DNA of 64,000 nucleotides. Source: Nesterenkonia sp. Act20 (lineage in GTDB: Bacteria; Actinomycetota; Actinomycetes; Actinomycetales; Micrococcaceae). The stretch is taken from positions 558,001-622,000 of the forward strand of contig NZ_JADPQH010000001.1 in NCBI RefSeq assembly GCF_019173455.1. Reading direction: 5' to 3'. Within the stretch, counting starts at the first letter, position 1. Every line of letters begins with the position of its first letter. Below, one piece after another: positions 9,317 through 20,438 of this stretch. Both the position numbers and the translations under genes were made by a program. The notes beneath the pieces were generated by a model. The model was not told the DNA's origin, did not search any database, and saw only the letters and a program-made list of their open reading frames with translations.

Positions 9317-10120
9317 TCAGTCCCGGATGAACTCTTCCATCTCGGCATCGGTCTCGGCTTCTCGCTTGGCGCGGCGCTTGTCATTGAGCAGGCACAGCAG
9401 AATGGCGATGCCGAAGAGCACGGCGAGCGGGATCGCAAGGAAGAACATCGTGACCGCGTCCCCGCCGGGGGCCGCCAGTGCCGAGACCACCGCGATGAGC
9501 ATGACCACTCCGCGCCAGGCCTTGAGCACCTGCTTGCCGCTGACCAGCCCCATCATGTTCACCCCGACGAGCACGACGGGGATGATCATGGCCAGGCCGA
9601 AGGCCAGGAACAGGTGCAGCACAAAGGTGAAGTAGACGTCCGGGTCGATGATGTTCGACGTGCCTTCAGGATTCAGTGCAAGGAAGAAGTCGATGGCCTG
9701 CGGAAGCACGCTGTAGGCGGCCGCGATGCCGGCGAGGAACAGCGGCACGGAAGCGCCGATGAACCCGATGGCGTAGCGCTTCTCGGTCTTGCGCAGCCCT
9801 GGCATGATGAAGGCCCAGATCTGGTAGAGCCAGATGGGCGAGGAGATCACAAACCCGACGAAGAGTGAGAGCCGGATCATCAGGTCCAGCGGACCGCCCA
9901 CAGTGCTGAAAGCGATATCGGCCAGGCGGCCGTCGTCCTCGTAGCCGAGTATGGGTTCGGCGAGGACCTGGACCAGCCAGTCGTACAGGAAGAAGCCGGC
10001 GACGGCGCCGGCAAGGATCCCCAGTGCAGCCTTGATGAGGCGATTGCGCAGCTCACGGAGATGGTCTTTCAGCGCCATGGTCCGCTCGGGGTCGCGCCGC
10101 CTCTTCTGCGTGGTGGCCAT
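9317..10120 (-). CDS. tatC: Sec-independent translocase subunit TatC
   Basis: This 267-residue polytopic membrane protein begins with a basic cytoplasmic tail and the family signature LKDHLRELRNRLIKA, followed by about six transmembrane segments and a charged C terminus. TatC is the twin-arginine signal-peptide receptor in the membrane and works with TatA, encoded 5 bases upstream. It is the last gene of the long minus-strand run. The 81-base gap to pepN holds no clear terminator. Confidence 0.97.
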   Translation of the reverse strand: MATTQKRRRDPERTMALKDHLRELRNRLIKAALGILAGAVAGFFLYDWLVQVLAEPILGYEDDGRLADIAFSTVGGPLDLMIRLSLFVGFVISSPIWLYQIWAFIMPGLRKTEKRYAIGFIGASVPLFLAGIAAAYSVLPQAIDFFLALNPEGTSNIIDPDVYFTFVLHLFLAFGLAMIIPVVLVGVNMMGLVSGKQVLKAWRGVVMLIAVVSALAAPGGDAVTMFFLAIPLAVLFGIAILLCLLNDKRRAKREAETDAEMEEFIRD

Positions 10121-10125
10121 GCGAG

Positions 10126-10422
10126 TTAGCGGTGGTCTCCCCGTGGCTCCCGCTCGCCGGAGCGGTTCTGCTCGGCAGTCGGGTCATTGGGGTTGAGCAC
10201 GCGGCCCTCGACGGGGGCACGGTCCTGCGAGGACTCCTCCGCGGTCGAGCCCGCGGAGTCATCGGAGTTCTTCCGCGATTCCTCGCTCATCGTGCGCACC
10301 TCAGACCGGAAGATGCGCATGGACTGACCCAGTGACTTCGCCAGTTTGGGCAGCTTGGGGGCTCCGAAGAGCAGGATGATGAGCAGTGCGATGATCGCGA
10401 TCTGCCAGCCGGTGATGTTCAT
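10126..10422 (-). CDS. tatA: Twin-arginine translocase subunit TatA
   Basis: This 98-residue protein starts at ATG 10422 after GGAAAGGACC. It has one N-terminal membrane helix (WQIAIIALLIILLFGAPKLP) with the TatA hinge FGAPKLPKLAKSLGQS and an amphipathic helix, then an acidic, Ser/Glu-rich tail. TatA oligomers form the export path recruited by TatC. It sits between pafBC (37 bases upstream) and tatC (5 bases downstream), the usual actinobacterial arrangement of tat genes after pafB-pafC. Confidence 0.95.
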   Translation of the reverse strand: MNITGWQIAIIALLIILLFGAPKLPKLAKSLGQSMRIFRSEVRTMSEESRKNSDDSAGSTAEESSQDRAPVEGRVLNPNDPTAEQNRSGEREPRGDHR

Positions 10423-10459
10423 AGCGCAGGTCCTTTCCTCGAGGCCAATGGTACGCCAC

Positions 10460-12445
10460 TCAGGCCGTGAGCTCGGACAGCTGGGCGCGGGCGCGATCAA
10501 GGACTTCGCGGCGCAGTTCGGCGGGGGCGAGCACTGCCACATCACCGCCCGCCTGCAGGCACAGCCTGATCAGCGCCTCTCGGCTCTGGAACCAGGTGCC
10601 GATGCTGCGGGCGCCGTCGGCGTGGGTGCGCTGGCGCTGCGGTGCGTACCGGTCGGCGAGCCCGGCGGCCGCCGGGGAGAAGCGAAGGACCACGTCGAAG
10701 GCGCCCGCTCCGCGCGGCGGCTGAGGAGGTTCCACCGGAGCCTGCGCGAGCGCGCGGGCCTGGTCACTGATCGGCTCCTCGGGCAGGGCCGTGCGCTCGA
10801 GGATGCGCGAACCGAGAAAGTTGCGCGGTGCCTGAGCCAGCCGACACCAGGCCTGCAGGTAGATGCGCGGCCCGTCGATATAGACCTGTGCGGGCTCCAC
10901 CACCCGTCGAGTGCGCGTGCCCTCGGCGTCCTCGTAGACGAGCTCCAGGCAGGTGCCCGCGCGGACCGCCTCGCGCAGCGCCGAAACTTCGTGGGTCTGC
11001 GCCTGCGCTCCAGCGGCGACCTGGGTGGCTGCGCGCTGCAGCCCTCCCGGAAGCACCGTGGTGATCTTTCCCCGCAGCGAGATCGCCGCCGGTAGCCAGA
11101 GGTCGACACCCGCTTCAGCCTCACCGATGATCGTGTTCAGCGCGATCAACAGCGAAAGCGCTCCTGGTTTGGTCAGTGTCAGCGGCCGGGCCAGCACGTC
11201 TCCGGTGCGCGCGGAGGGCATCGCGAGGGTGATCGGCTCATCGGCAGGCAGGTACTCCTCGGTGAACTGTGCAAGGTTCAGCGGCGGGGCAGGGTCGACA
11301 TCGATGAACTCGCCATACTGCCCTGGACCGAAGCTGCCTGACTGCTGGATGGAGAGCAGGTCTTTGAGCAGCTGCTTGGGGGTGATCTGATGTCGGCGCA
11401 GCAGCTCCGAGGGGCGCACCCCCGGGGAGCTGAGCAGATACGCGGCGATGGAGAGGACCCGCTCCACCTTGCGGTGCGCGGGGTCTGCCTGACGCGCGGG
11501 TGCCGCTCGAGCGAGCCGCGGAAGCCTGGGGCTCGGAGCAGTGTGCGCGTCGAGCACTCCACGGAGGAGCTCTGCGGGGTCCTCCGCCCCGGTGAACCCG
11601 TCGAACGCCGCACGGGCGTCCACTCCGGCGACGGCGCTGCGCTGGTCCTCGGTGAGCCGCGGCTGCGGTGTCAGGGCCCTGATGACCCCGTGCACACGAT
11701 CGAGCCGGAACACGCGACGAGCGTCTCGGTCCAGGTCATGACCGATCAGGTACCAGTGTCCGCGGGCTGCGTAGTCCAGCAGCACGACCCGTCGAGGCGA
11801 TGGCCGGGCGGCGCCCCGCGCGGTGTAGTCGAATCCGACGACCGTGCCTGCATCGAGCGCGGCGAGCTCGGTGAGCCGGTCGAACTCGTCGTCGCTGCCG
11901 AGGTTGAAGCTCAGCGCACCGGCCTGGTCCTCGAATCGAGGCGAGGCTGCGGACTCCGTGGACAGCGCCCAGCTCGCCTGCTCCAGCCAGGACCGCGTCC
12001 GACTTCCCGCCCACAGCTGGCTCGCACGAGTGAGCACGAGCCTCTCGGCGTCGGTGAGCGGAAGCGCCGGCAGTCCGTAGTCGTCCGGGTCGATGCGGTA
12101 CCGGTAGTCGTCCCGGTCGGCAGCCGGTTCTGCGATGGCGATCCCGCAGCTGCGCAGGTGATCCTTGTCCCGGCTGAACAGCCGCTCCCAGGCGTCCTCG
12201 GACTGGCCCTCGCCGAAGGAACGGTAGTGCTCCACCCGCTCGCGGATCTCGGTCTTGGTCAGCCCGCCGCTGCCCGCATCGAGGATGCTGGCAGCCAGCG
12301 AGAAGGCCCGCGCCACGCCGTAGTCGGCGTAGACGTCCTGGAGCTCGTCCTCCTCCTGGGCAGAGGCTGCCTGCGGCTCCGCGGAGGGCCCAGGCTGCGT
12401 GGACTCGAGAGGCGCGGCCGCACTGGCGTGCTGCGGATCCGTCAC
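10460..12445 (-). CDS. pafBC: Fused PafB-PafC WYL-domain transcriptional activator
   Basis: This 661-residue protein is a tandem duplication: each half has an N-terminal winged helix-turn-helix, a WYL domain and a WCX C-terminal extension. The first WYL domain includes GHWYLIGHDLDRDARRVFRLDRV; the second includes PRIYLQAWCRLAQAPRNFLGSRI. In mycobacteria PafB and PafC are separate and together activate the LexA-independent DNA-damage response; in Arthrobacter they are naturally fused, as here. The start is GTG 12445, 9 bases after the FKBP stop. It is encoded in the pupylation gene run but acts in transcription rather than in Pup chemistry. WYL domains are thought to sense single-stranded nucleic acid. 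Confidence 0.93.
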   Translation of the reverse strand: MTDPQHASAAAPLESTQPGPSAEPQAASAQEEDELQDVYADYGVARAFSLAASILDAGSGGLTKTEIRERVEHYRSFGEGQSEDAWERLFSRDKDHLRSCGIAIAEPAADRDDYRYRIDPDDYGLPALPLTDAERLVLTRASQLWAGSRTRSWLEQASWALSTESAASPRFEDQAGALSFNLGSDDEFDRLTELAALDAGTVVGFDYTARGAARPSPRRVVLLDYAARGHWYLIGHDLDRDARRVFRLDRVHGVIRALTPQPRLTEDQRSAVAGVDARAAFDGFTGAEDPAELLRGVLDAHTAPSPRLPRLARAAPARQADPAHRKVERVLSIAAYLLSSPGVRPSELLRRHQITPKQLLKDLLSIQQSGSFGPGQYGEFIDVDPAPPLNLAQFTEEYLPADEPITLAMPSARTGDVLARPLTLTKPGALSLLIALNTIIGEAEAGVDLWLPAAISLRGKITTVLPGGLQRAATQVAAGAQAQTHEVSALREAVRAGTCLELVYEDAEGTRTRRVVEPAQVYIDGPRIYLQAWCRLAQAPRNFLGSRILERTALPEEPISDQARALAQAPVEPPQPPRGAGAFDVVLRFSPAAAGLADRYAPQRQRTHADGARSIGTWFQSREALIRLCLQAGGDVAVLAPAELRREVLDRARAQLSELTA

Positions 12446-12454
12446 AGCTGCAGG

Positions 12455-12859
12455 TCAGGAGGCCTTGCGGACGCTGACCAGGTCCACCACGAAGATCAGG
12501 GTCTCGTTCGGACCGATGGCCGCGCCGGCACCCTGCTCACCATAGGCCAGGTGCGGAGGAATCTCGAAGCGACGCCGAGCACCCTCCTTCATGCCGATGA
12601 GCCCCTGGTCCCAGCCCTGAATGACTTGTCCGATGCCGGCGGTGAAGTCAAGGGTCTCACCACGGTTCCAGGAGGCGTCGAACTCCTCCCCGGTGGACCA
12701 GGAGACGCCCACGTAGTGGCAGGAGATCTGGTCCCCCGGCTCCACGGCGTGACCGCCGCCGGAGATCAGCTCCTCGATGACCAGCTCCTGCGGCGGGGTG
12801 TCCCCGGGAAAGTCGATCTCGGGGCGGGTGCGGTCATAGCTGCGCTGGCCGAAGGACAT
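12455..12859 (-). CDS. FKBP-type peptidyl-prolyl isomerase, cytoplasmic
   Basis: This 134-residue single FKBP domain has GDQISCHYVGVSWSTGEEFDASW, VIQGWDQGLIGMKEGARRRFEIPPHLAYGEQGAG and a C-terminal LIFVVDLVSV strand, covering the FKBP core active-site segments. No signal peptide is present, so it is cytoplasmic. It catalyses cis-trans isomerisation of proline peptide bonds and may act as a chaperone. Its ATG overlaps the stop of the lipid-anchored FKBP by one base (TAATG), so the two are translationally coupled. Confidence 0.93.
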   Translation of the reverse strand: MSFGQRSYDRTRPEIDFPGDTPPQELVIEELISGGGHAVEPGDQISCHYVGVSWSTGEEFDASWNRGETLDFTAGIGQVIQGWDQGLIGMKEGARRRFEIPPHLAYGEQGAGAAIGPNETLIFVVDLVSVRKAS

Positions 12860-14001
12860 TACTCGGTCTCCTCTTCGTTCTGGTTCTCAGAGTCGGTGTT
12901 CTCAGAGTCGCCGCCGGAGTCAGCCTCGCCACCCTCGGCGCCGCCCTCCTGCTGGCTCTCCATCTCTTCGATCATCTCCTGGATCTCTTCCTCAGTGAGC
13001 TCAGGCTGGCCCGACTGACCGCCCGGCTGACCGCCCGGCTGCGCCGGAGCGGCCTCCGGAGCGTCCGCGGAGGCGATGAGGTCCACCACGAAGATCAGGG
13101 TCTCCCCCGCGAGCTCGTGCTGAGCGTCTTCTTCGGCGCCCTCCTCGACCTCGCCGTAGCCGGCCTCGGGCGGGATGACCATCAGCACCCGGGAACCGAC
13201 CTGCTTGCCCTCGAGGCCCTCGGCCCAGCCTGGAACCAGGTTCGCCAAGGGGAATCCTGTCGGACCCGGATCGGCCTCCTCGTCGTCGGTCGGCCAGTTC
13301 GAGTCGAACTGCTCGCCGTCGGAGTACTTCCAGCCGGTGTAGCGCACCACGACCTGATCGTCGGCTGCGATCTCTTCGCCGTCGCCCTGGATCAGGACCT
13401 CGGAGGTGGTCTCCTCGGGGGCGTCGCCGGTGATCTCTCCGGCAAGCGCGGGGGCCTCACCCTCGGTGCTCTCGATCTCCGGGAGGTCCCCGCTCTGTTC
13501 CTGGGCCTCACCTGAGGCGTAGGCCTCGGACTGTCCCTCCACGCGCAGCACCAGCAGCGTGGCTGGCGCCTGTGACTCGGCGTTGGCAGGTTCGAAGAGG
13601 GCGATCTCGGAGCCCACCGTCAGATCTGTGTCGGTCAGCGAGTCGTAGATGAACTCACTCTGCTCCTGCATCTGGGGCAGGAAGACCATCGAGGGGTTGC
13701 CCTCCGTGAAGCTCTCTTCCTGGACCTCGCCGGTCTCGGGGTCGACCACGGCGTGGGACACCTCGAGGATCTGCTCCTCGTCCAGGTCCTCTCCGTCACC
13801 ACGGTCGAGGACCCTGGAGGCCTCCTCTTCGATCTCGAGCGGGTTGCGCAGGATGACCTCTGGGGTGCCCTCCTCGGTGTAGTGCAGCTCGACACCGGAG
13901 AGGGCGTCGGTGTCCCCCAGGCCCTCGGTGGAGCAGGAGGACAACAGCAGTACCGCCGGAACGGAAAGTGCCACAGTGGTGCGGCGGAACGAACGATGCA
14001 C
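12859..14001 (-). CDS. Lipid-anchored FKBP-type peptidyl-prolyl isomerase
   Basis: This 380-residue protein starts at GTG 14001 after AAGGA. A signal peptide with lipobox LLSSC (Cys near residue 23) marks it as a membrane-anchored lipoprotein outside the cell membrane. Residues about 190-315 form an FKBP domain (VVVRYTGWKYSDGEQFDSNW, LVPGWAEGLEGKQVGSRVLMVIPPEAGYGE). Residues about 35-170 resemble a second FKBP domain that has lost its active-site motifs. The last 65 residues are Gln/Gly/Pro- then Glu-rich and probably disordered. Such two-domain FKBP lipoproteins occur next to pafA in Micrococcales. The job inferred is folding of exported proteins; the link to pupylation is positional only. 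Confidence 0.88.
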   Translation of the reverse strand: MHRSFRRTTVALSVPAVLLLSSCSTEGLGDTDALSGVELHYTEEGTPEVILRNPLEIEEEASRVLDRGDGEDLDEEQILEVSHAVVDPETGEVQEESFTEGNPSMVFLPQMQEQSEFIYDSLTDTDLTVGSEIALFEPANAESQAPATLLVLRVEGQSEAYASGEAQEQSGDLPEIESTEGEAPALAGEITGDAPEETTSEVLIQGDGEEIAADDQVVVRYTGWKYSDGEQFDSNWPTDDEEADPGPTGFPLANLVPGWAEGLEGKQVGSRVLMVIPPEAGYGEVEEGAEEDAQHELAGETLIFVVDLIASADAPEAAPAQPGGQPGGQSGQPELTEEEIQEMIEEMESQQEGGAEGGEADSGGDSENTDSENQNEEETE

Positions 14002-14080: not shown

Positions 14081-15574
14081 TCAGATCAGCGGAGGCTCAG
14101 CAAACTCCCGGGGAGAGGCAAGCGTATAGCGCTCACTCAGCGCCAGCGGCACCGCCTGTTCCCGGCGCTGCGCCAGGTTCTGCTCGCGCAGCGTCTCGAC
14201 ACGATCACCCAGCTTCGCCAGCAGGGTGTCCAGGCGCGGATCCTCCGCGAGCAGCGGGTCCTTGAGCATGAGCGCGTCCAAGGGACGGTCCACCAGTTTG
14301 TGGTGCACCCAGTCCACGGTGTGCTCGGCTCCCAGCGCGCGCGCTGTGGAGAGGAACCGACCGCGCAGCGCCGCGCGAGTGGTGCTTGGCGGGTCGACGA
14401 TGGCACGCTCGATCCGCTCCGGCTCCAGCTGGGTGCTGACCCTGCCGTGCGCTGCGAGCACATTGAATACCCCGCGGCGCGGGTGGACGTCGTGGTAGGC
14501 CATGTCCAGCTGTTCCAGCTTCGGATGTCCCTGGCGAAGGCCGCCGCGTTCGGCGACGTCGGTCAGCAGGCGCTTCTTGATCGCCCAGTCGATGTCCCGT
14601 TCGATCGAGCTGTGGTCTCCGCTGGCGACCGCCTGCAGCGTGCGTTCCCAGAGCTCGAAGATCTGCTCCACCTGGTCATGATGCGCCCCGTTCTCCCGCA
14701 CGAAGCGCCGGGCGCGGTCCAGCAGACCCGACTGGATGTCCACAGCGGTCATCTCGGGGCCGTTGCGGACCTTCACGGTGGCAGTTCCGCTGATGTCGTG
14801 GCTGATGTGGCGGATCGCCCCGATCGGGTTCTCCAGCTCGAAGTCGCCCACCGGGACGCCGGACTCGACCATGCGCAGCACCAGGTCGGTGGCGCCGTAG
14901 CGCAGCAGGCTCGTGGTCTCGGACATGTTCGAGTCTCCGACGATCACATGCAGCCGGCGGTGCAGCGCCGCATCGGCATGCGGCTCATCCCGAGTGTTGA
15001 TGATCGGGCGTGAGCGCGTGGTGGCCGAGGAGATGCCTTCCCACATGTGATCGGCGCGCTGGGAGAACGCGTAGTGCGCCGGAGTCTCGTCAGTGGCCGG
15101 CACGAGTCGTCCGGCACCGACGAGGATCTGCCGGGTCACCAGGAAGGGCAGCAGGATCGTGGAGAGCCGGCGGAAGTGGGTGGTGCGCGGGATCATGTAG
15201 TTCTCGTGGCTGCCATAGGAGTTGCCCTGGGAGTCCACGTTGTTCTTGAGCAGATAGACGCTGCCGTCGAATCCGTCCTCAGCCATGGCTGCCTCGGCAC
15301 GCTGTGCCAGATCATGCATAATGAGCTCGCCGGCCCGATCAGAGGCGATCAGGTCCAGCAGGTCGTCGCATTCAGCGGTGGCGTACTCGGGGTGCGATCC
15401 GACATCGAGATAGAGCCGCGAGGCATTCGGGATGAAGACGTTGGAGCTGCGACCCCATTTCAGCACGGGCCGGAAGATGTAGCGGGCCAGCTCGTCAGGC
15501 GGCAGCCCGCGATGCTCGCCACCCTGGTGGGTGATCCCGAACTCGGTCTCCACCCCGAAGACACGACGCTCCAT
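14081..15574 (-). CDS. pafA: Pup-protein ligase PafA
   Basis: This 497-residue enzyme belongs to the carboxylate-amine ligase (glutamine-synthetase-like) superfamily. It carries the ATP/Mg motif VETEFGI with Glu9, the catalytic Asp57 in LYLDVGSHPEYAT, the KNNVDSQGNSYGSHENYMIP segment and RPIINTRDEPHAD. PafA phosphorylates the C-terminal Glu of Pup and joins it to lysines of target proteins. Length matches the family (about 450-500). Its ATG lies only 6 bases after the pup stop codon. In proteasome-bearing actinobacteria prcB and prcA follow pup, so their place is empty here. Confidence 0.97.
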   Translation of the reverse strand: MERRVFGVETEFGITHQGGEHRGLPPDELARYIFRPVLKWGRSSNVFIPNASRLYLDVGSHPEYATAECDDLLDLIASDRAGELIMHDLAQRAEAAMAEDGFDGSVYLLKNNVDSQGNSYGSHENYMIPRTTHFRRLSTILLPFLVTRQILVGAGRLVPATDETPAHYAFSQRADHMWEGISSATTRSRPIINTRDEPHADAALHRRLHVIVGDSNMSETTSLLRYGATDLVLRMVESGVPVGDFELENPIGAIRHISHDISGTATVKVRNGPEMTAVDIQSGLLDRARRFVRENGAHHDQVEQIFELWERTLQAVASGDHSSIERDIDWAIKKRLLTDVAERGGLRQGHPKLEQLDMAYHDVHPRRGVFNVLAAHGRVSTQLEPERIERAIVDPPSTTRAALRGRFLSTARALGAEHTVDWVHHKLVDRPLDALMLKDPLLAEDPRLDTLLAKLGDRVETLREQNLAQRREQAVPLALSERYTLASPREFAEPPLI

Positions 15575-15580
15575 GGAGTG

Positions 15581-15781
15581 CTACTCGCCGCCCTTCTGGA
15601 CGAACCCCTTGACGAACTCCTCGGCGTTGGATTCGAGCACCGAGTCGATCTCGTCCAACATGCTGTCCAGCTCCCCGGCGCGCTTCTGGGCCTGGGCGCT
15701 TCCGCTCACTGGTGTCGCCTCGGCGGCAGGCCCGCCGTCCTCGTCTCCGCCGTGGGGTCGCTTCTGCGGTTGAGTGGACAT
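15581..15781 (-). CDS. pup: Prokaryotic ubiquitin-like protein Pup
   Basis: This 66-residue, acidic, largely disordered protein starts at ATG 15781 after AAAGGAGAG. The C-terminal half is the conserved LDSMLDEIDSVLESNAEEFVKGFVQKGGE region (residues 38-66), which binds the ARC coiled coil and PafA. It ends in GGE rather than GGQ, so it is ready for ligation and needs no Dop deamidation. The gene lies 28 bases after dop and 6 bases before pafA. The frame is open upstream, but family length and the strong ribosome binding site fix the start. Confidence 0.96.
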   Translation of the reverse strand: MSTQPQKRPHGGDEDGGPAAEATPVSGSAQAQKRAGELDSMLDEIDSVLESNAEEFVKGFVQKGGE

Positions 15782-15809
15782 GGTTCTCTCCTTTGATGGC
15801 CGAGCGACG

Positions 15810-17549
15810 TCATCGCCCCAGCAGACGCTGGAGTCCGGTGATGAGGTCCGCGTTGGTCTTCGCGCTGACAAGTGTATTCTCCGCAGCCGCACGGGTCCCC
15901 GAATAGGGGTCCGGAAGCCCCAGGCGCACCGTCGGGGCCACGGCATCGGCCCGCAGCAGGACCTGGTCCCAGCTGGCACCGACGACGACGTCGGGGTGTT
16001 GACTCACCAGCCGTCCGCGAAGCCAGGCTCTGGTCTCCTCGGGTGGGTGCTCCGCGGCCGAGGCGATCTGCTGATCGGTGAAGAGCCGGCGCATCCTGCC
16101 GGCGCGCGCCAGCTTGTAGTAGAGCCCCTTCTCCTCACGGAGATCGGCGTACTGCAGATCCACCATGGCCAGGACGGGGGCATCCCAGTCCAGAGAGTCG
16201 CGGCGCCGGTAGGACTCGAGCAGCGAGAGTTTCGCCACCCAGTCGACCCGGTCCGCGGCGCTGAAGACGTCTTCGGTGAGGTCGCGCAGCAGCTCCTGCC
16301 AGGCCTCGAGGACCTCGGCGGTCTCGGTATCGGGAACCGCGGGGGTCGACTCGGGCCCGGTCTTCTCCTGAGCCCAGTCCATGGCGGCCTGCAGGTACAG
16401 CTGCTGGATGTCCACAGCGGTGAGCGGGCCCCGAGAGGTGGGCACCGTGGCGCTCAGGCTCGGATCATGGGAGATCGTCTTGAGCGCCGCCACGGGGTCC
16501 TCGAGGGTGATCTCCGGGGCGCGTCCGGACTCGATCAGGTCCAGCACCAGCGCGGTGGTGCCCACCCGCAGCCAGGCCGAGTACTCACTCATATTGGCAT
16601 CGCCGATGATGACATGCAGCCGCCGGAACCGATCCTGATCGGCATGGGGCTCGTCGCGGGTGTTGATGATGGGCCGACGCACGGTCGTCTCCAGACCGAC
16701 CTCCTCCTCGAAGAAGTCGGCGCGCTGGGAGATCTGGTACCCCGGCTCCCCGCTGGTCTGACCGATCCCGACTCGTCCGGCGCCGCAGATGACCTGCCGA
16801 GACGCGAAGAAGGGAAGCAGCCCGGCGACCAGTGCGTCGAACCGGACCGCTCGCGGGACCAGGTAGTTCTCATGGGCGCCGTAGGAGACGGACTTGTTGT
16901 CCGTGTTGTTCTTGTACAGCAGCACCTGCGGGGAGTGCTCCTCCTGGCTCAGCCGCTGCGCCGCCGCGCGGACCACCCGGTCGCCGGCGACGTCGTAGAG
17001 CACCGCCCGGCGCGCTCCGAGCGCCTCGGGAGAGGAATATTCCGGGTGGGCGTGATCCACATAGAACCGTGCGCCGTTGCCCAGCACCAGGTTCATCAGC
17101 AGCTGCGGCTGACCCTCGCGCGGCTGGAAGTAGTCGCCGCGCCAATGCGCCGACCCAGGCGCGTGGTAGGCCCCTGCGACGTCGGCCGGGCTGGGGTCTC
17201 CCCCGCTGACGTTTCCCAGCGCGTCGCGGACGGGCCCCTGTCCGGACTCCTGCTCGGTGGCATAGCTCAGCGCCTCGTCGTAGCGCGCGTGGTCCAAGGC
17301 CTCCTCGGTGTCGGTGAGCTGCGAGGGATGGGCGGCGGAGCGCGGAAGCACCCAGCCCCGGGCGTCCACCAGCGGGGACTCCGACTGATAGTCCCACTCG
17401 GTGCCCGCCACGGCACCGCCGGTCTCGGTCACATGGGCGGCATAGGCGTTGACCAGCTCGATGGACAGCGCCACATGGCTGGCCCTGGGGTTGGCGGGGG
17501 CATGGATCCCGTACTCGGTCTCCATCCCGATCAGCCTGCGCACGCTCAT
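15810..17549 (-). CDS. dop: Depupylase / Pup deamidase Dop
   Basis: This 579-residue PafA paralogue has GMETEYGI (Glu10), WDYQSESPLVDARGW, the catalytic Asp in NGARFYVDHAHPEYSS (about residue 165), YKNNTDNKSVSYGAHENYLVP and RPIINTRDEPHAD. Dop hydrolyses the isopeptide bond between Pup and lysine and, where needed, deamidates Pup-Gln. Here Pup already ends in Glu, so only depupylation is required. The protein is about 80 residues longer than the roughly 500 usual. The extra length lies between residues 66 and 157, the position of the regulatory Dop-loop. The start overlaps the ARC stop by 4 bases. Confidence 0.96.
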   Translation of the reverse strand: MSVRRLIGMETEYGIHAPANPRASHVALSIELVNAYAAHVTETGGAVAGTEWDYQSESPLVDARGWVLPRSAAHPSQLTDTEEALDHARYDEALSYATEQESGQGPVRDALGNVSGGDPSPADVAGAYHAPGSAHWRGDYFQPREGQPQLLMNLVLGNGARFYVDHAHPEYSSPEALGARRAVLYDVAGDRVVRAAAQRLSQEEHSPQVLLYKNNTDNKSVSYGAHENYLVPRAVRFDALVAGLLPFFASRQVICGAGRVGIGQTSGEPGYQISQRADFFEEEVGLETTVRRPIINTRDEPHADQDRFRRLHVIIGDANMSEYSAWLRVGTTALVLDLIESGRAPEITLEDPVAALKTISHDPSLSATVPTSRGPLTAVDIQQLYLQAAMDWAQEKTGPESTPAVPDTETAEVLEAWQELLRDLTEDVFSAADRVDWVAKLSLLESYRRRDSLDWDAPVLAMVDLQYADLREEKGLYYKLARAGRMRRLFTDQQIASAAEHPPEETRAWLRGRLVSQHPDVVVGASWDQVLLRADAVAPTVRLGLPDPYSGTRAAAENTLVSAKTNADLITGLQRLLGR

Positions 17550-19378
17550 CGTCGGCCCCGCTGCTGCGCAGGGGCGCTGGGGGCGCTGGTGTCAGCCCCG
17601 ACGGCGGGCCGCTCGATGCGCACCACGGGAGAGCTCGAGGCGCCGACGACGCGTGACCAGGCCTGCGGATCCGAGGTGTTCACCAGGTCCTCCTGGTCTC
17701 GGAGCTCCTCTTCAGCGGCGTCGAAGAGGTGGTCCAGAGTGAGGCCCTTCTGCGCCGGATCGGTGCCGGAGCCCAGGAAGTCCTTGATCGCGGCCTTCTT
17801 CGCCCGGTCGACGATGTTGCTGAGCACCGCCCCGGACATGAAGTCGGCGGCCTGGAAGGGCGTGGACGTTCCATCGGCATGGATCAGGCGCAGGCGTGCC
17901 TGCTGGGTCTGCGGGAAGAGCCGGTCCAACAGCGAATCGACGAGGAACGCCACCGCCGAGGACCGGTCGCCATGCTCGGCGAGCAGGTCAGGGTGCAGCG
18001 GGACGGCCCCGCCGAGATGGATGCCGAGGATCTCTCCGGCACCTTCACGGCCGGGTCGCTGGACGCGGATCTTCACATCCAGCCGGCCAGGCCTCAGGAT
18101 GGCCGGGTCGATCATGTCTTCCCGGTTGGAGGCACCGATGACGATCACGTTCTCCAGCGACTCCACGCCGTCGATCTCCGCCAGCAGCTGCGGTACGATG
18201 GTGGTCTCCACATCGGAGGAGACGCCGCTGCCGCGCGTGCGGAACAGGGCCTCCATCTCATCGAAGAAGACCACCACGGGCTGGCCGGAGGAGGCGCGTT
18301 CGCGAGCGCGGGAGAAGATCACCCGGATATGCCGTTCGGTCTCACCGACGTATTTGTTCAGCAGCTCCGGGCCCTTGATGTTCAAGAAGAAGGCCCCCGT
18401 GCCCTGGCCCTCGGAGGCTGCATCGCCGCCGTCGGACGTGGCGTTCCGGACCGTCGTCTCAGCTCCTCCGGCCCGCGCGCCGCTGCCGCTGCCGGCGAGG
18501 GAGCTGGCGACGGCTTTCGCGATCATGGTCTTGCCGCAGCCAGGCGGGCCGTAGAGCAGGATGCCCTTGGGGGCGCGCAGTCCGTGCTCCTGGTACAGGT
18601 CGGCGTGCAGGAACGGCAGTTCCACGGCGTCACGGATGGCCTCGATCTGCTCGGAGAGCCCCCCGATGTCCGAGTAGGAGACGTCGGGTGACTCTTCGAG
18701 CACCACATCCTCGACCTCCGAGAGCGGAACGATCTCGGTGGCAGTGCCGGTGCGCAGGTCCACCATCACGGCATCGCCGACGCGGGCGCTGTGCAGCCCC
18801 TCGGCCTTGGCCTGCGCCTGTGCGGCAGCGGTGAGGGTCACGACGCGTTCGTCCTCGCCGCGGGAGACGATCACCAGGCGGGAGTCGGGCAGCACTTCTT
18901 TGACCCGCGCGAGCTCGCCGGTCGGCTCGGCCCCCAGGACCGCCACGACGGTGAAGTTCTCATTGAGCAGCACCTCGTCTCCGGCCTGGAGCTCCTCGGG
19001 GGTGATCAGCGGGGAGAGGCTCACGCGCAGCTTGCGTCCCGCCTGGAGGATGTCGACTCCGGCCACCGTGGTGGCCTGGATCTCCCGGCCAGTCACCTGC
19101 TCGTGGGCCGGGCGGTAGCCGATCACGGTGCCGAAGGTGAAGGGCGCCTGTCCATCAGCCTGCAGCGCATTGCGCAGCTCGGAGATCTCGTTGCGGGTGG
19201 TCTCCAGCAGATCCACCATGCGCTGGTTGTTCCGCCCTGCGCTCTGCAGCTGAGTCTCCAGCTGCTTGGCGCGGCTGCGCAGCGTGTCCAGCTGGCGGTG
19301 GGCCTGGTTCAGCCGGTTCTGCAGCTGCTGGGCCTCGCGGCTCTGCTGCGGGGCCTCGTTACCTGTCTGCTCACTCAC
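17546..19378 (-). CDS. arc: Pup-recognising AAA+ ATPase ARC (Mpa homologue)
   Basis: This 610-residue protein starts at GTG 19378. An N-terminal coiled coil (residues 10-75) should bind Pup, and two OB-type interdomains follow (80-225). The AAA+ domain has Walker A GPPGCGKT at 277-284, pore loop KYVG at 342-345, Walker B VVVFFDEM at 368-375, and GASNREDMIDPAILRPGRLD. ARC hexamers unfold pupylated proteins. Two things are odd: a Gly/Ala/Ser-rich insertion (about 296-327) after the Walker A helix, and a C terminus ending in PAQQRGRR instead of the GQYL-type tail that docks on the 20S proteasome. Downstream genes dop, pup and pafA overlap or are closely spaced. Confidence 0.96.
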   Translation of the reverse strand: MSEQTGNEAPQQSREAQQLQNRLNQAHRQLDTLRSRAKQLETQLQSAGRNNQRMVDLLETTRNEISELRNALQADGQAPFTFGTVIGYRPAHEQVTGREIQATTVAGVDILQAGRKLRVSLSPLITPEELQAGDEVLLNENFTVVAVLGAEPTGELARVKEVLPDSRLVIVSRGEDERVVTLTAAAQAQAKAEGLHSARVGDAVMVDLRTGTATEIVPLSEVEDVVLEESPDVSYSDIGGLSEQIEAIRDAVELPFLHADLYQEHGLRAPKGILLYGPPGCGKTMIAKAVASSLAGSGSGARAGGAETTVRNATSDGGDAASEGQGTGAFFLNIKGPELLNKYVGETERHIRVIFSRARERASSGQPVVVFFDEMEALFRTRGSGVSSDVETTIVPQLLAEIDGVESLENVIVIGASNREDMIDPAILRPGRLDVKIRVQRPGREGAGEILGIHLGGAVPLHPDLLAEHGDRSSAVAFLVDSLLDRLFPQTQQARLRLIHADGTSTPFQAADFMSGAVLSNIVDRAKKAAIKDFLGSGTDPAQKGLTLDHLFDAAEEELRDQEDLVNTSDPQAWSRVVGASSSPVVRIERPAVGADTSAPSAPAQQRGRR

Positions 19379-20438
19379 GGGTGAACACCTCCTTGGCCTG
19401 TGCGGCGATCTTCTGGGAGTAGGCCGCGGCCTTGCGGCTCTTCTTCCCCGAGACGGTGCGGGTCTTCAGGCTTGCCTCGTCCCAGACAGCCTCGGGATCG
19501 TTGGCGGGCCATGCGGCGCGGTCCTCCTCGCTCACTGTGGAGACCTTCTCGCGCTTCTTCAGCTGCAAGGGGGTCTGGTCATCGGCGAGCCGCCGCGCGG
19601 AGAGCAGGAAGCCGGTGTGCGCCACCATGCGGTGATCCGGCCGTACGGCCAGTCCGTCCAGATGCCAGGTGCGCAGCATGGTCTCGTGGGCCTCGGGCTC
19701 GGTGAACCCCTGTGAGGCGCGGATCTCCTCGGCGAGACGGGACAGCTGGGTCACGGAGGCCACATAGCTGACCCAGACTCCCCCGGGCGCCAGGACGGTC
19801 TTCACCGCGTCCAGGCACTCCCAGGGTGCGAGCATGTCCAGCACCACCCGGTCCACGCTGCCGGGCTCCTCCACGGTGAGGACCTCCTCCTGCATGTCCC
19901 CGAGATAGACCTCCCAGCCTGGGTGGGACTCGCCGAAGAACGCCTCGACGTTTCCGACCGCGATGTCCTTGAAGTCAGCACGCCGCTCGTAGGAATGGAG
20001 CACCCCGTTCTCCCCGACGGCGCGGAGCAGCGAGATCGACAGCGCGCCGGAGCCCACGCCGGCCTCGACCACCCGAGCACCCGGGAAGATGTCGGCGACC
20101 TGCACGATCTGTGCGGAGTCCTTCGGGTAGACCACTGTCGCGCCGCGGGGCATGGAGAGCACGAAGTCGTTGAGCAGCGGGCGCAGCACCTGGTACTCAT
20201 GACCCGCGTCATTGGCCACCAGGATCCCCTCGCTGGCGCCGATGAGCAGATCGTGGCGGAGCACGCCCTGATGGGTGTGCCATTCTCCGCCGGGCTGCAG
20301 CGTGATGGTGCTGGGCCGGCCCCGGCGGTCGGTGAGCTGAACCCGCTGACCTGCGCGCAGCGGTCCTGAGCGCATATGTGCTCCGATGGGGCCGGAGGTG
20401 GTCGTCGACGGGGTCTCGCCGGAGGCGCTGGTGCTCAC
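19371..20438 (-). CDS. trmI: tRNA (adenine-58-N1)-methyltransferase
   Basis: This 355-residue class I SAM methyltransferase starts at GTG 20438. It has an N-terminal beta domain, then motif I ARVVEAGVGSGALSISLLRAVG, YERRADFKDIAVGNVEAFFG, and the active-site strand DRVVLDMLAPWECL. It methylates A58 in the T-loop of tRNA. Lys-rich and Ser-rich residues form the C-terminal tail, an extension beyond the usual 280 residues. The stop overlaps the ARC start by 8 bases; trmI upstream of arc/mpa is a standard actinobacterial arrangement. A 132-base gap upstream probably holds the main promoter of the pupylation operon. Confidence 0.93.
   Translation of the reverse strand: MSTSASGETPSTTTSGPIGAHMRSGPLRAGQRVQLTDRRGRPSTITLQPGGEWHTHQGVLRHDLLIGASEGILVANDAGHEYQVLRPLLNDFVLSMPRGATVVYPKDSAQIVQVADIFPGARVVEAGVGSGALSISLLRAVGENGVLHSYERRADFKDIAVGNVEAFFGESHPGWEVYLGDMQEEVLTVEEPGSVDRVVLDMLAPWECLDAVKTVLAPGGVWVSYVASVTQLSRLAEEIRASQGFTEPEAHETMLRTWHLDGLAVRPDHRMVAHTGFLLSARRLADDQTPLQLKKREKVSTVSEEDRAAWPANDPEAVWDEASLKTRTVSGKKSRKAAAYSQKIAAQAKEVFTRE

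Follow-up and report, generated by a model that had tools for sequence, protein, structure and literature searches.

A proteasome-free Pup locus in Nesterenkonia sp. Act20, and relatives that point to a possible order of proteasome loss

Can a Pup conjugation system be kept intact without the 20S proteasome and, if so, what would it do? The question is raised by a locus of Nesterenkonia sp. Act20 (family Micrococcaceae), which lies in a stretch of 64,000 nucleotides (contig NZ_JADPQH010000001.1 of assembly GCF_019173455.1, positions 558,001 to 622,000; the window in what follows). Positions 14081..17549 of the window take in dop, pup and pafA, and arc (17546-19378) belongs to the same gene run; these and all other window features given below are on the minus strand. 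The genes of the 20S core, prcB and prcA, were not found. The window very probably holds an intact Pup system that is proteasome-free and undocked, and the 20S core appears to have gone by secondary gene loss from an intact Pup conjugation system.

All four proteins of the system were identified by scores above the curated NCBIfam cut-offs. Pup (15581..15781, 66 residues) scored 71.5 bits with TIGR03687 (cut-off 41.45); it ends in QKGGE, its C-terminal Glu being encoded directly. The Pup-protein ligase PafA (14081..15574, 497 residues) scored 653.7 bits with TIGR03686 (cut-off 551.3), and 462.7 bits against 4b0t over residues 2-467 of 497. The depupylase Dop (15810..17549, 579 residues), whose gene overlaps arc by 4 bases, scored 593.8 bits with TIGR03688 (cut-off 492.3), and 466.2 bits, in two stretches, against 5lrt (Depupylase). 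ARC (gene arc, or mpa, 17546..19378), the Pup-dependent AAA+ unfoldase of 610 residues with a GTG start, scored 675 bits with TIGR03689 (cut-off 504.75) and, by phmmer, 506.5 bits against the solved structure 7px9, over residues 8-602 of 610. Between the end of pup and the beginning of pafA there are 6 bases (15575..15580), exactly as a preliminary description of the window had stated, and this gap is the slot of prcB-prcA in relatives.

The same description had proposed that the Pup system of the window might be free of the proteasome, and had named prcB and prcA elsewhere in the genome as the finding that would speak against it. A profile search for the proteasome fold (PF00227) was run on the whole genome (2,930,097 bases, or 2.93 Mb, in 2 contigs, 97.26% complete) and gave no match, so neither gene was found in the window or beyond it; the proposal is thus backed by a genome-wide search, as well as by the relatives described below. 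The same search was positive in 10 of 14 control genomes, in some of which we take the match to be HslV. PF00227 also remained unmatched in 7/7 sampled genomes of the genus, the organism's own and six congeners. The named genomes closest in PafA among the loci listed were Nesterenkonia halophila (74% identity), N. ebinurensis (70%) and N. sphaerica (68%), and their loci had no PrcB or PrcA match and no ARC ending in the docking motif GQYL. It could be argued from the completeness value that prcBA exist and are absent from the assembly only. However, where the core genes usually lie there are just 6 bases, within a contig, and all seven sampled genomes of the genus and the three named Nesterenkonia loci agree, which leaves an assembly gap as an extremely improbable explanation.

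In the family, PF00227 was matched in 79/149 genomes (19/32 genera) and Pup was found in 148/149, the lone miss being a genome that is 82% complete. A sample of 198 genomes of the order comprised 121 with Pup and PF00227, 60 with Pup only, 1 with PF00227 only (77% complete) and 16 with neither. Most of the states that we call prcBA-negative, like those for Bpa and for the order sample, mean absence among the matches listed (for example, the 79 in the family). The comparison of the pup-pafA junction that the preliminary description had suggested was run on 148 loci and the gap was measured in 108; in the other 40, which include those of the neighbouring genera g21 and g16, the pafA start motif was not found. 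Where measured, the gap was approximately 1490-1700 bases in prcBA-positive loci and -4 to 91 bases in negative ones, except for 269 bases in genome G008, and in Nesterenkonia (g1) it was 6 bases in five of seven genomes and 3 and 4 in the other two. In the named genomes found by a PafA scan (the best 80 of at least 594 loci), 65 loci had PrcB and PrcA, 11 had pup but lacked both, and 4 could not be scored.

Relics of prcBA in the 69 negative loci were sought by tblastn (E-value 0.01) with 18 frames, the PrcB and PrcA of 9 genomes. There were 35 matches, and those of the PrcA frames were to G008 only; matches of the PrcB frames (G001, G026, G053, G030) fell at the position of pup and, as we read them, derive from sequence that precedes PrcB when frames are taken from stop to stop. 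A plasmid origin of the locus was rejected, relatives of PafA occurring in only 2 of 72,556 plasmid records, both at less than 60% identity. Three loci were unusual in their arrangement or labelling. In G208, pup (contig C7, 205427) and prcB (214714) are about 9 kb apart, whereas they usually adjoin; in G276, ARC and Pup are on separate contigs (C10, C24) of a 40-contig assembly; and a contig titled as a Bifidobacterium breve metagenome-assembled genome (L256) has PrcB, PrcA and a GQYL-ended ARC; its title may be wrong.

Is the unfoldase of the window still equipped to dock to a 20S core? Its translation ends in RGRR (17549..17560), in the place of the 20S-docking motif GQYL of most proteasome-bearing relatives, as judged from an alignment of 39 ARC tails and from the 148 loci. 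GQYL ends ARC in 76/79 prcBA-positive family genomes, versus 1/68 readable negative ones (one further negative genome had no ARC on its contig and was unreadable for the tail). None of the other readable negative ARCs has an aromatic next-to-last residue, and 56 different four-residue endings occur among the 68. In the named set, within the same best 80 of at least 594 loci, GQYL was present in 54/56 readable positive loci and in 0/10 readable negative ones; the two positives without it are L245 and L255, in the latter of which the best frame looks wrong. In other families of the order, 9 of the 11 20S-bearing genomes read have GQYL, versus 0/9 negative genomes, three of these nine having an unsure frame (G250, G167, G156). 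One 20S-bearing genome, G153 (f6), has an ARC without GQYL and a Bpa match. In G155 (C3:440279-441803), ARC matches occur in two frames that overlap by about 10 bases, as if the gene were frameshifted.

Bpa was distributed in a similar way. Its profile, PF10759, was matched in 68/79 prcBA-positive family genomes (in G076 below the family cut-off) and in 1/69 Pup-positive negatives, and there was no PF10759 match in the genome of the window. The 11 20S-bearing family genomes without a match are G001, G015, G025, G045, G053, G057, G069, G093, G106, G110 and G145.

Given these components, PafA would ligate Pup to lysines, and ARC would grip Pup and then unfold or disassemble the tagged protein with no handover to a protease, so that Pup and ARC would constitute a non-degradative unfolding and recycling system. 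By analogy, this mode of ARC action is probable. Several points weigh against our reading of the locus. That ARC acts without degradation is extrapolated from Corynebacterium, and no Pup experiment on Nesterenkonia was found in the literature; the genome is only 97% complete; the link between GQYL and prcBA is thin once corrected for kinship, with 6 independent pairs, of which 4 agree, 0 disagree and 2 show no difference, and is not significant (median p 0.125); and unordered parsimony does not separate repeated loss of prcBA from loss followed by regain.

The other use that such an ARC could be put to is to hand pupylated proteins to another protease, be it ClpP, FtsH or an unknown one, in which case Pup would still be a degradation tag. 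In favor of this, the AAA+ body of ARC is kept and arc is maintained, and outside the locus there is a strong AAA match (C1:1628587-1629288, E-value 2.1e-77, in an open frame of 656 residues), which is probably FtsH. However, no shared new C-terminal motif has taken the place of GQYL, the 68 negative ARCs having 56 different endings; moreover, no protease gene was seen between trmI and pafA, although no search was aimed at ClpP or other proteases. A replacement protease is thus unlikely, and non-degradative action by ARC is the explanation that we favor.

What could such a system act on? The preliminary description had pointed to ferritin disassembly, a task reported for Pup systems without a proteasome; this suggestion was not borne out for the organism of the window, as the only PF00210 protein found in its genome is Dps. 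The single match (L299, 176 residues, 72.8 bits) has as its best relatives in the PDB 4cy9 (DpsA, 201.9 bits) and 1uvh (a starvation protein, 196.4 bits), and its best NCBIfam match is PRK09448 (Dps) at 99.2 bits, below the cut-off of 114. Since no classical ferritin was found by the PF00210 search of the genome, a classical ferritin is unlikely as the substrate. In the family set, ferritins were classed by E-value alone, our own genome excepted, as the stronger of two groups separated by a gap between 2.7e-23 and 2.2e-27. A ferritin-class match so defined was present in 49/70 prcBA-negative and 44/79 positive genomes (absent from 21/70 versus 35/79), and no significant link between ferritin and the prcBA state was obtained (Fisher p 0.09). 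Pup was present in all 21 negative genomes that had no ferritin-class match, an argument against ferritin as the general reason why the system is kept. The model of Corynebacterium glutamicum, in which ferritin is disassembled, is set out in the accessible parts of two reviews (PMC8223512, PMC12288473), and the window shares with that species the gene set and the absence of prcBA. With only Dps found in the genome, and with ferritin-class matches missing from 21 of the 70 negative genomes, ferritin disassembly is nonetheless very unlikely to be the function here, and the C. glutamicum model cannot simply be transferred to this organism.

Whatever its substrates, the Pup system shows signs of being in use. 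In a comparison with the close relative G066, whose PafA shares 99.6% identity, pafA has an omega of 0.029, dop one of 0.071 and arc one of 0.144; by these sequence comparisons, the three genes are under purifying selection, and the low values suggest that the system is used without a 20S core. Pup ends in Glu in 8/148 loci, comprising 7/69 negatives (five of g1 and two of g3) and 1/79 positives, and forms of Pup with Glu (PupE) are known, according to the part of PMC3511204 available to us. Because the Pup of the window is made with a terminal Glu, it requires no deamidation by Dop, and Dop would remain in this organism as a depupylase that takes Pup off for re-use. The loop of Dop between two fixed motifs has 154 residues in the window and 131-154 in g1; it has 97 in all sampled genomes of g2, g14, g16 and g21 and in 7/8 of g4, and 103 in the eighth g4 genome.

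How the 20S core was lost may be glimpsed in a few exceptional relatives. G008 (g9) is PF00227-negative, but its ARC is GQYL-ended. In its pup locus (L166), the pup-pafA gap of 269 bases holds a match to the C-terminal end of PrcA (best E-value 3.4e-6), and its Bpa match starts at profile position 51, in a frame of 139 residues, corresponding to a truncated bpa. We read this genome as a probable case of recent deletion of the core genes, in which the partners have not yet eroded.

The converse combination occurs in two (g2 and g21) of the neighboring genera of Nesterenkonia (g2, g4, g14, g16 and g21). In G001 (g2) and in G093 and G110 (g21), PrcB and PrcA are present and ARC lacks GQYL, while the other five of the seven sampled g21 genomes have no PF00227 match. 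The core genes of all three sit between pup and pafA. Subunits of G110 and G001 score above the cut-offs of the curated bacterial 20S models; G093 had a single PF00227 match, and its second subunit was found in the locus by phmmer. In all three genomes PrcB retains the active-site pattern with its Thr, Asp and Lys, and PrcA keeps an Arg and a Lys at what we take, from sequence, to be the positions equivalent to pocket residues Arg26 and Lys52; the latter are called essential in M. tuberculosis in the part of PMC9599533 that was accessible. Among the positives of the family, the active-site pattern was found in 77/79 PrcB proteins, the two misses (G004, G045) keeping the residues and differing in one adjoining letter, and the pocket pattern in 77/78 PrcA proteins. 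The ARC tails of G001, G093 and G110 resemble those of prcBA-negative neighbors in g4, g14, g16 and g21 in the 39-tail alignment, being LRML- or LRVL-like where GQYL-bearing ARCs show IRTI, and no Bpa match was obtained in any of the three genomes. Simple decay of PrcBA in g21 was considered and rejected: between G093 and G110, omega is 0.112 for PrcB and 0.110 for PrcA, as in coupled lineages, which argues that the genes are maintained, though synonymous divergence (dS) is high, at 1.5 and 1.3, and near saturation. G110 also has a second, partial rpoB match (C4:336836-337489), possibly a contamination.

Further cases came from other genomes. The locus of Enteractinococcus coprophilus DSM 24083 (L245) has PrcBA, and its ARC tail is the same as in G110. 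Two f11 genomes (G206, locus L267, and G310, locus L268) have PrcBA with the active-site pattern and pocket residues intact, no GQYL and no Bpa match; their PrcBA are very divergent (branches of 1.57 and 4.78 in the tree), and no other f11 genome in the order sample is listed with a PF00227 match. G185 (f20) is 20S-bearing with no GQYL and no Bpa match. A Cdc48-like activator was sought in ten genomes (G001, G093, G110, G206, G310 and five more); none had a match above the CDC48 cut-off, and weaker AAA matches occurred in all ten.

In an rpoB tree of 30 genomes, the genus of the window groups with g4, g14, g2, g16 and g21 (support 87/87, or 100/99 without g1). GQYL ends 0/30 readable ARCs of this clade (31 loci), though G001 and 2/7 g21 genomes hold PrcBA. 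The PrcBA tree unites g2 and g21 (100/99) and nests them in the family (99/96); the stem leading to them is long, at 1.2 changes per column, and their PrcBA are 0.05-0.08 more distant than PafA and Dop predict (standard deviation 0.03). Unordered parsimony gives 6 prcBA changes and 4 GQYL changes on the locus tree, and 7 prcBA changes on the rpoB tree of 30. We tentatively put forward, as a possibility short of probable, that the ancestor of the clade lost the ARC tail and Bpa with the 20S core still there, and that the core later disappeared more than once, from Nesterenkonia and from several sister genera, with two lineages retaining it. On our reading, separate core losses would have occurred in g1, g4, g14 and g16, and within g21. 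The 20S that remains in g2 and g21 keeps the active-site pattern and the Arg and Lys of the activation pocket, is under purifying selection in the g21 pair and has no known docking partner; it might work with an undiscovered activator or without ATPase coupling.

The same data could be explained if the core had been lost once, at the base of the clade, and regained by transfer in g2 and g21, the newcomers being not yet coupled to ARC. Such a course is permitted by unordered parsimony, and both the long stem of the g2 and g21 PrcBA and their excess distance would fit it. However, these PrcBA form one clade within the family, lie in the usual slot and are not found among the 10 outgroup loci used; furthermore, the rpoB tree puts g16 between these two genera (99/91), so that regain needs a further loss. 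We therefore regard regain as doubtful.

The genes around the locus are read in the order trmI-arc-dop-pup-pafA, followed by two FKBP isomerases, the pafBC frame and tatA-tatC. Upstream, a trmI-like tRNA methyltransferase gene (19371..20438; Pfam TrmI-like_N and GCD14) overlaps the start of arc by 8 bases. Downstream of pafA are genes for two FKBP-type peptidyl-prolyl isomerases (12859..14001 and 12455..12859; PF00254 at 50.2 and 104.2 bits, respectively) and a single frame of 661 residues (10460..12445) for a WYL-domain transcription factor, with WYL in two stretches, HTH_PafC and WCX, which is presumably pafBC. They are followed by tatC (9317..10120; PF00902), preceded by a TatA-like open reading frame (10126-10545; PF02416).

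How does the locus compare with known systems? In the accessible part of a review, about half of sequenced actinobacteria are said to have lost the core genes from the locus and kept the pupylation enzymes (PMC6466877). What could be consulted of PMC3511204 describes pup directly before pafA where prcBA are absent, and an ATPase without the interaction motif there; the corresponding part of PMC8223512 describes a subgroup that lacks prcBA, secondary loss being the likely cause, and shows M. luteus and C. glutamicum among the species in its figure. As in the Corynebacterium and Micrococcus luteus loci covered by these excerpts and by that of PMC4254994, Pup, PafA, Dop and ARC are kept in the window, prcBA and bpa are absent, pup stands directly before pafA and the ATPase lacks the interaction motif. 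Unlike those cases, the window comes from another genus, its genome yielded no classical ferritin, and its clade has members with PrcBA and a GQYL-less ARC. With the mycobacterial or Arthrobacter-type Pup-proteasome, the window shares homologous enzymes and the order arc-dop-pup-(prcB-prcA)-pafA, but it differs in having no prcB, prcA or Bpa match, in the RGRR end of ARC instead of GQYL, and in a Pup that ends in Glu rather than Gln. The g2 and g21 relatives, with a 20S core and no known GQYL activator, recall Propionibacterium acnes, which, according to the portion of PMC4254994 at hand, has 20S genes and neither ARC nor Bpa; in contrast to that species, where ARC is missing altogether, ARC is present in g2 and g21, without GQYL. 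No paper was found on Nesterenkonia pupylation or on the Micrococcaceae 20S proteasome, and no report was found of a 20S-bearing genome with a tail-less ARC present, in a search outside which most subscription papers lay.

The locus is an ordinary and well-preserved example of Pup without a proteasome, of a layout already in print, and adds one more clean case of Pup kept without the shredder. As the search of this genome gave no classical ferritin, the only function worked out so far should not be taken for granted here. Of more interest are the relatives: with one genome that seems to have lost the core only recently, and with lineages that have a 20S core but no ARC tail or Bpa match, a yes-or-no pattern becomes an order of events that can be tested. 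If that order is true and the 20S of g2 and g21 runs without ATPase coupling, it would be a step toward the proteasome-free state of Nesterenkonia.

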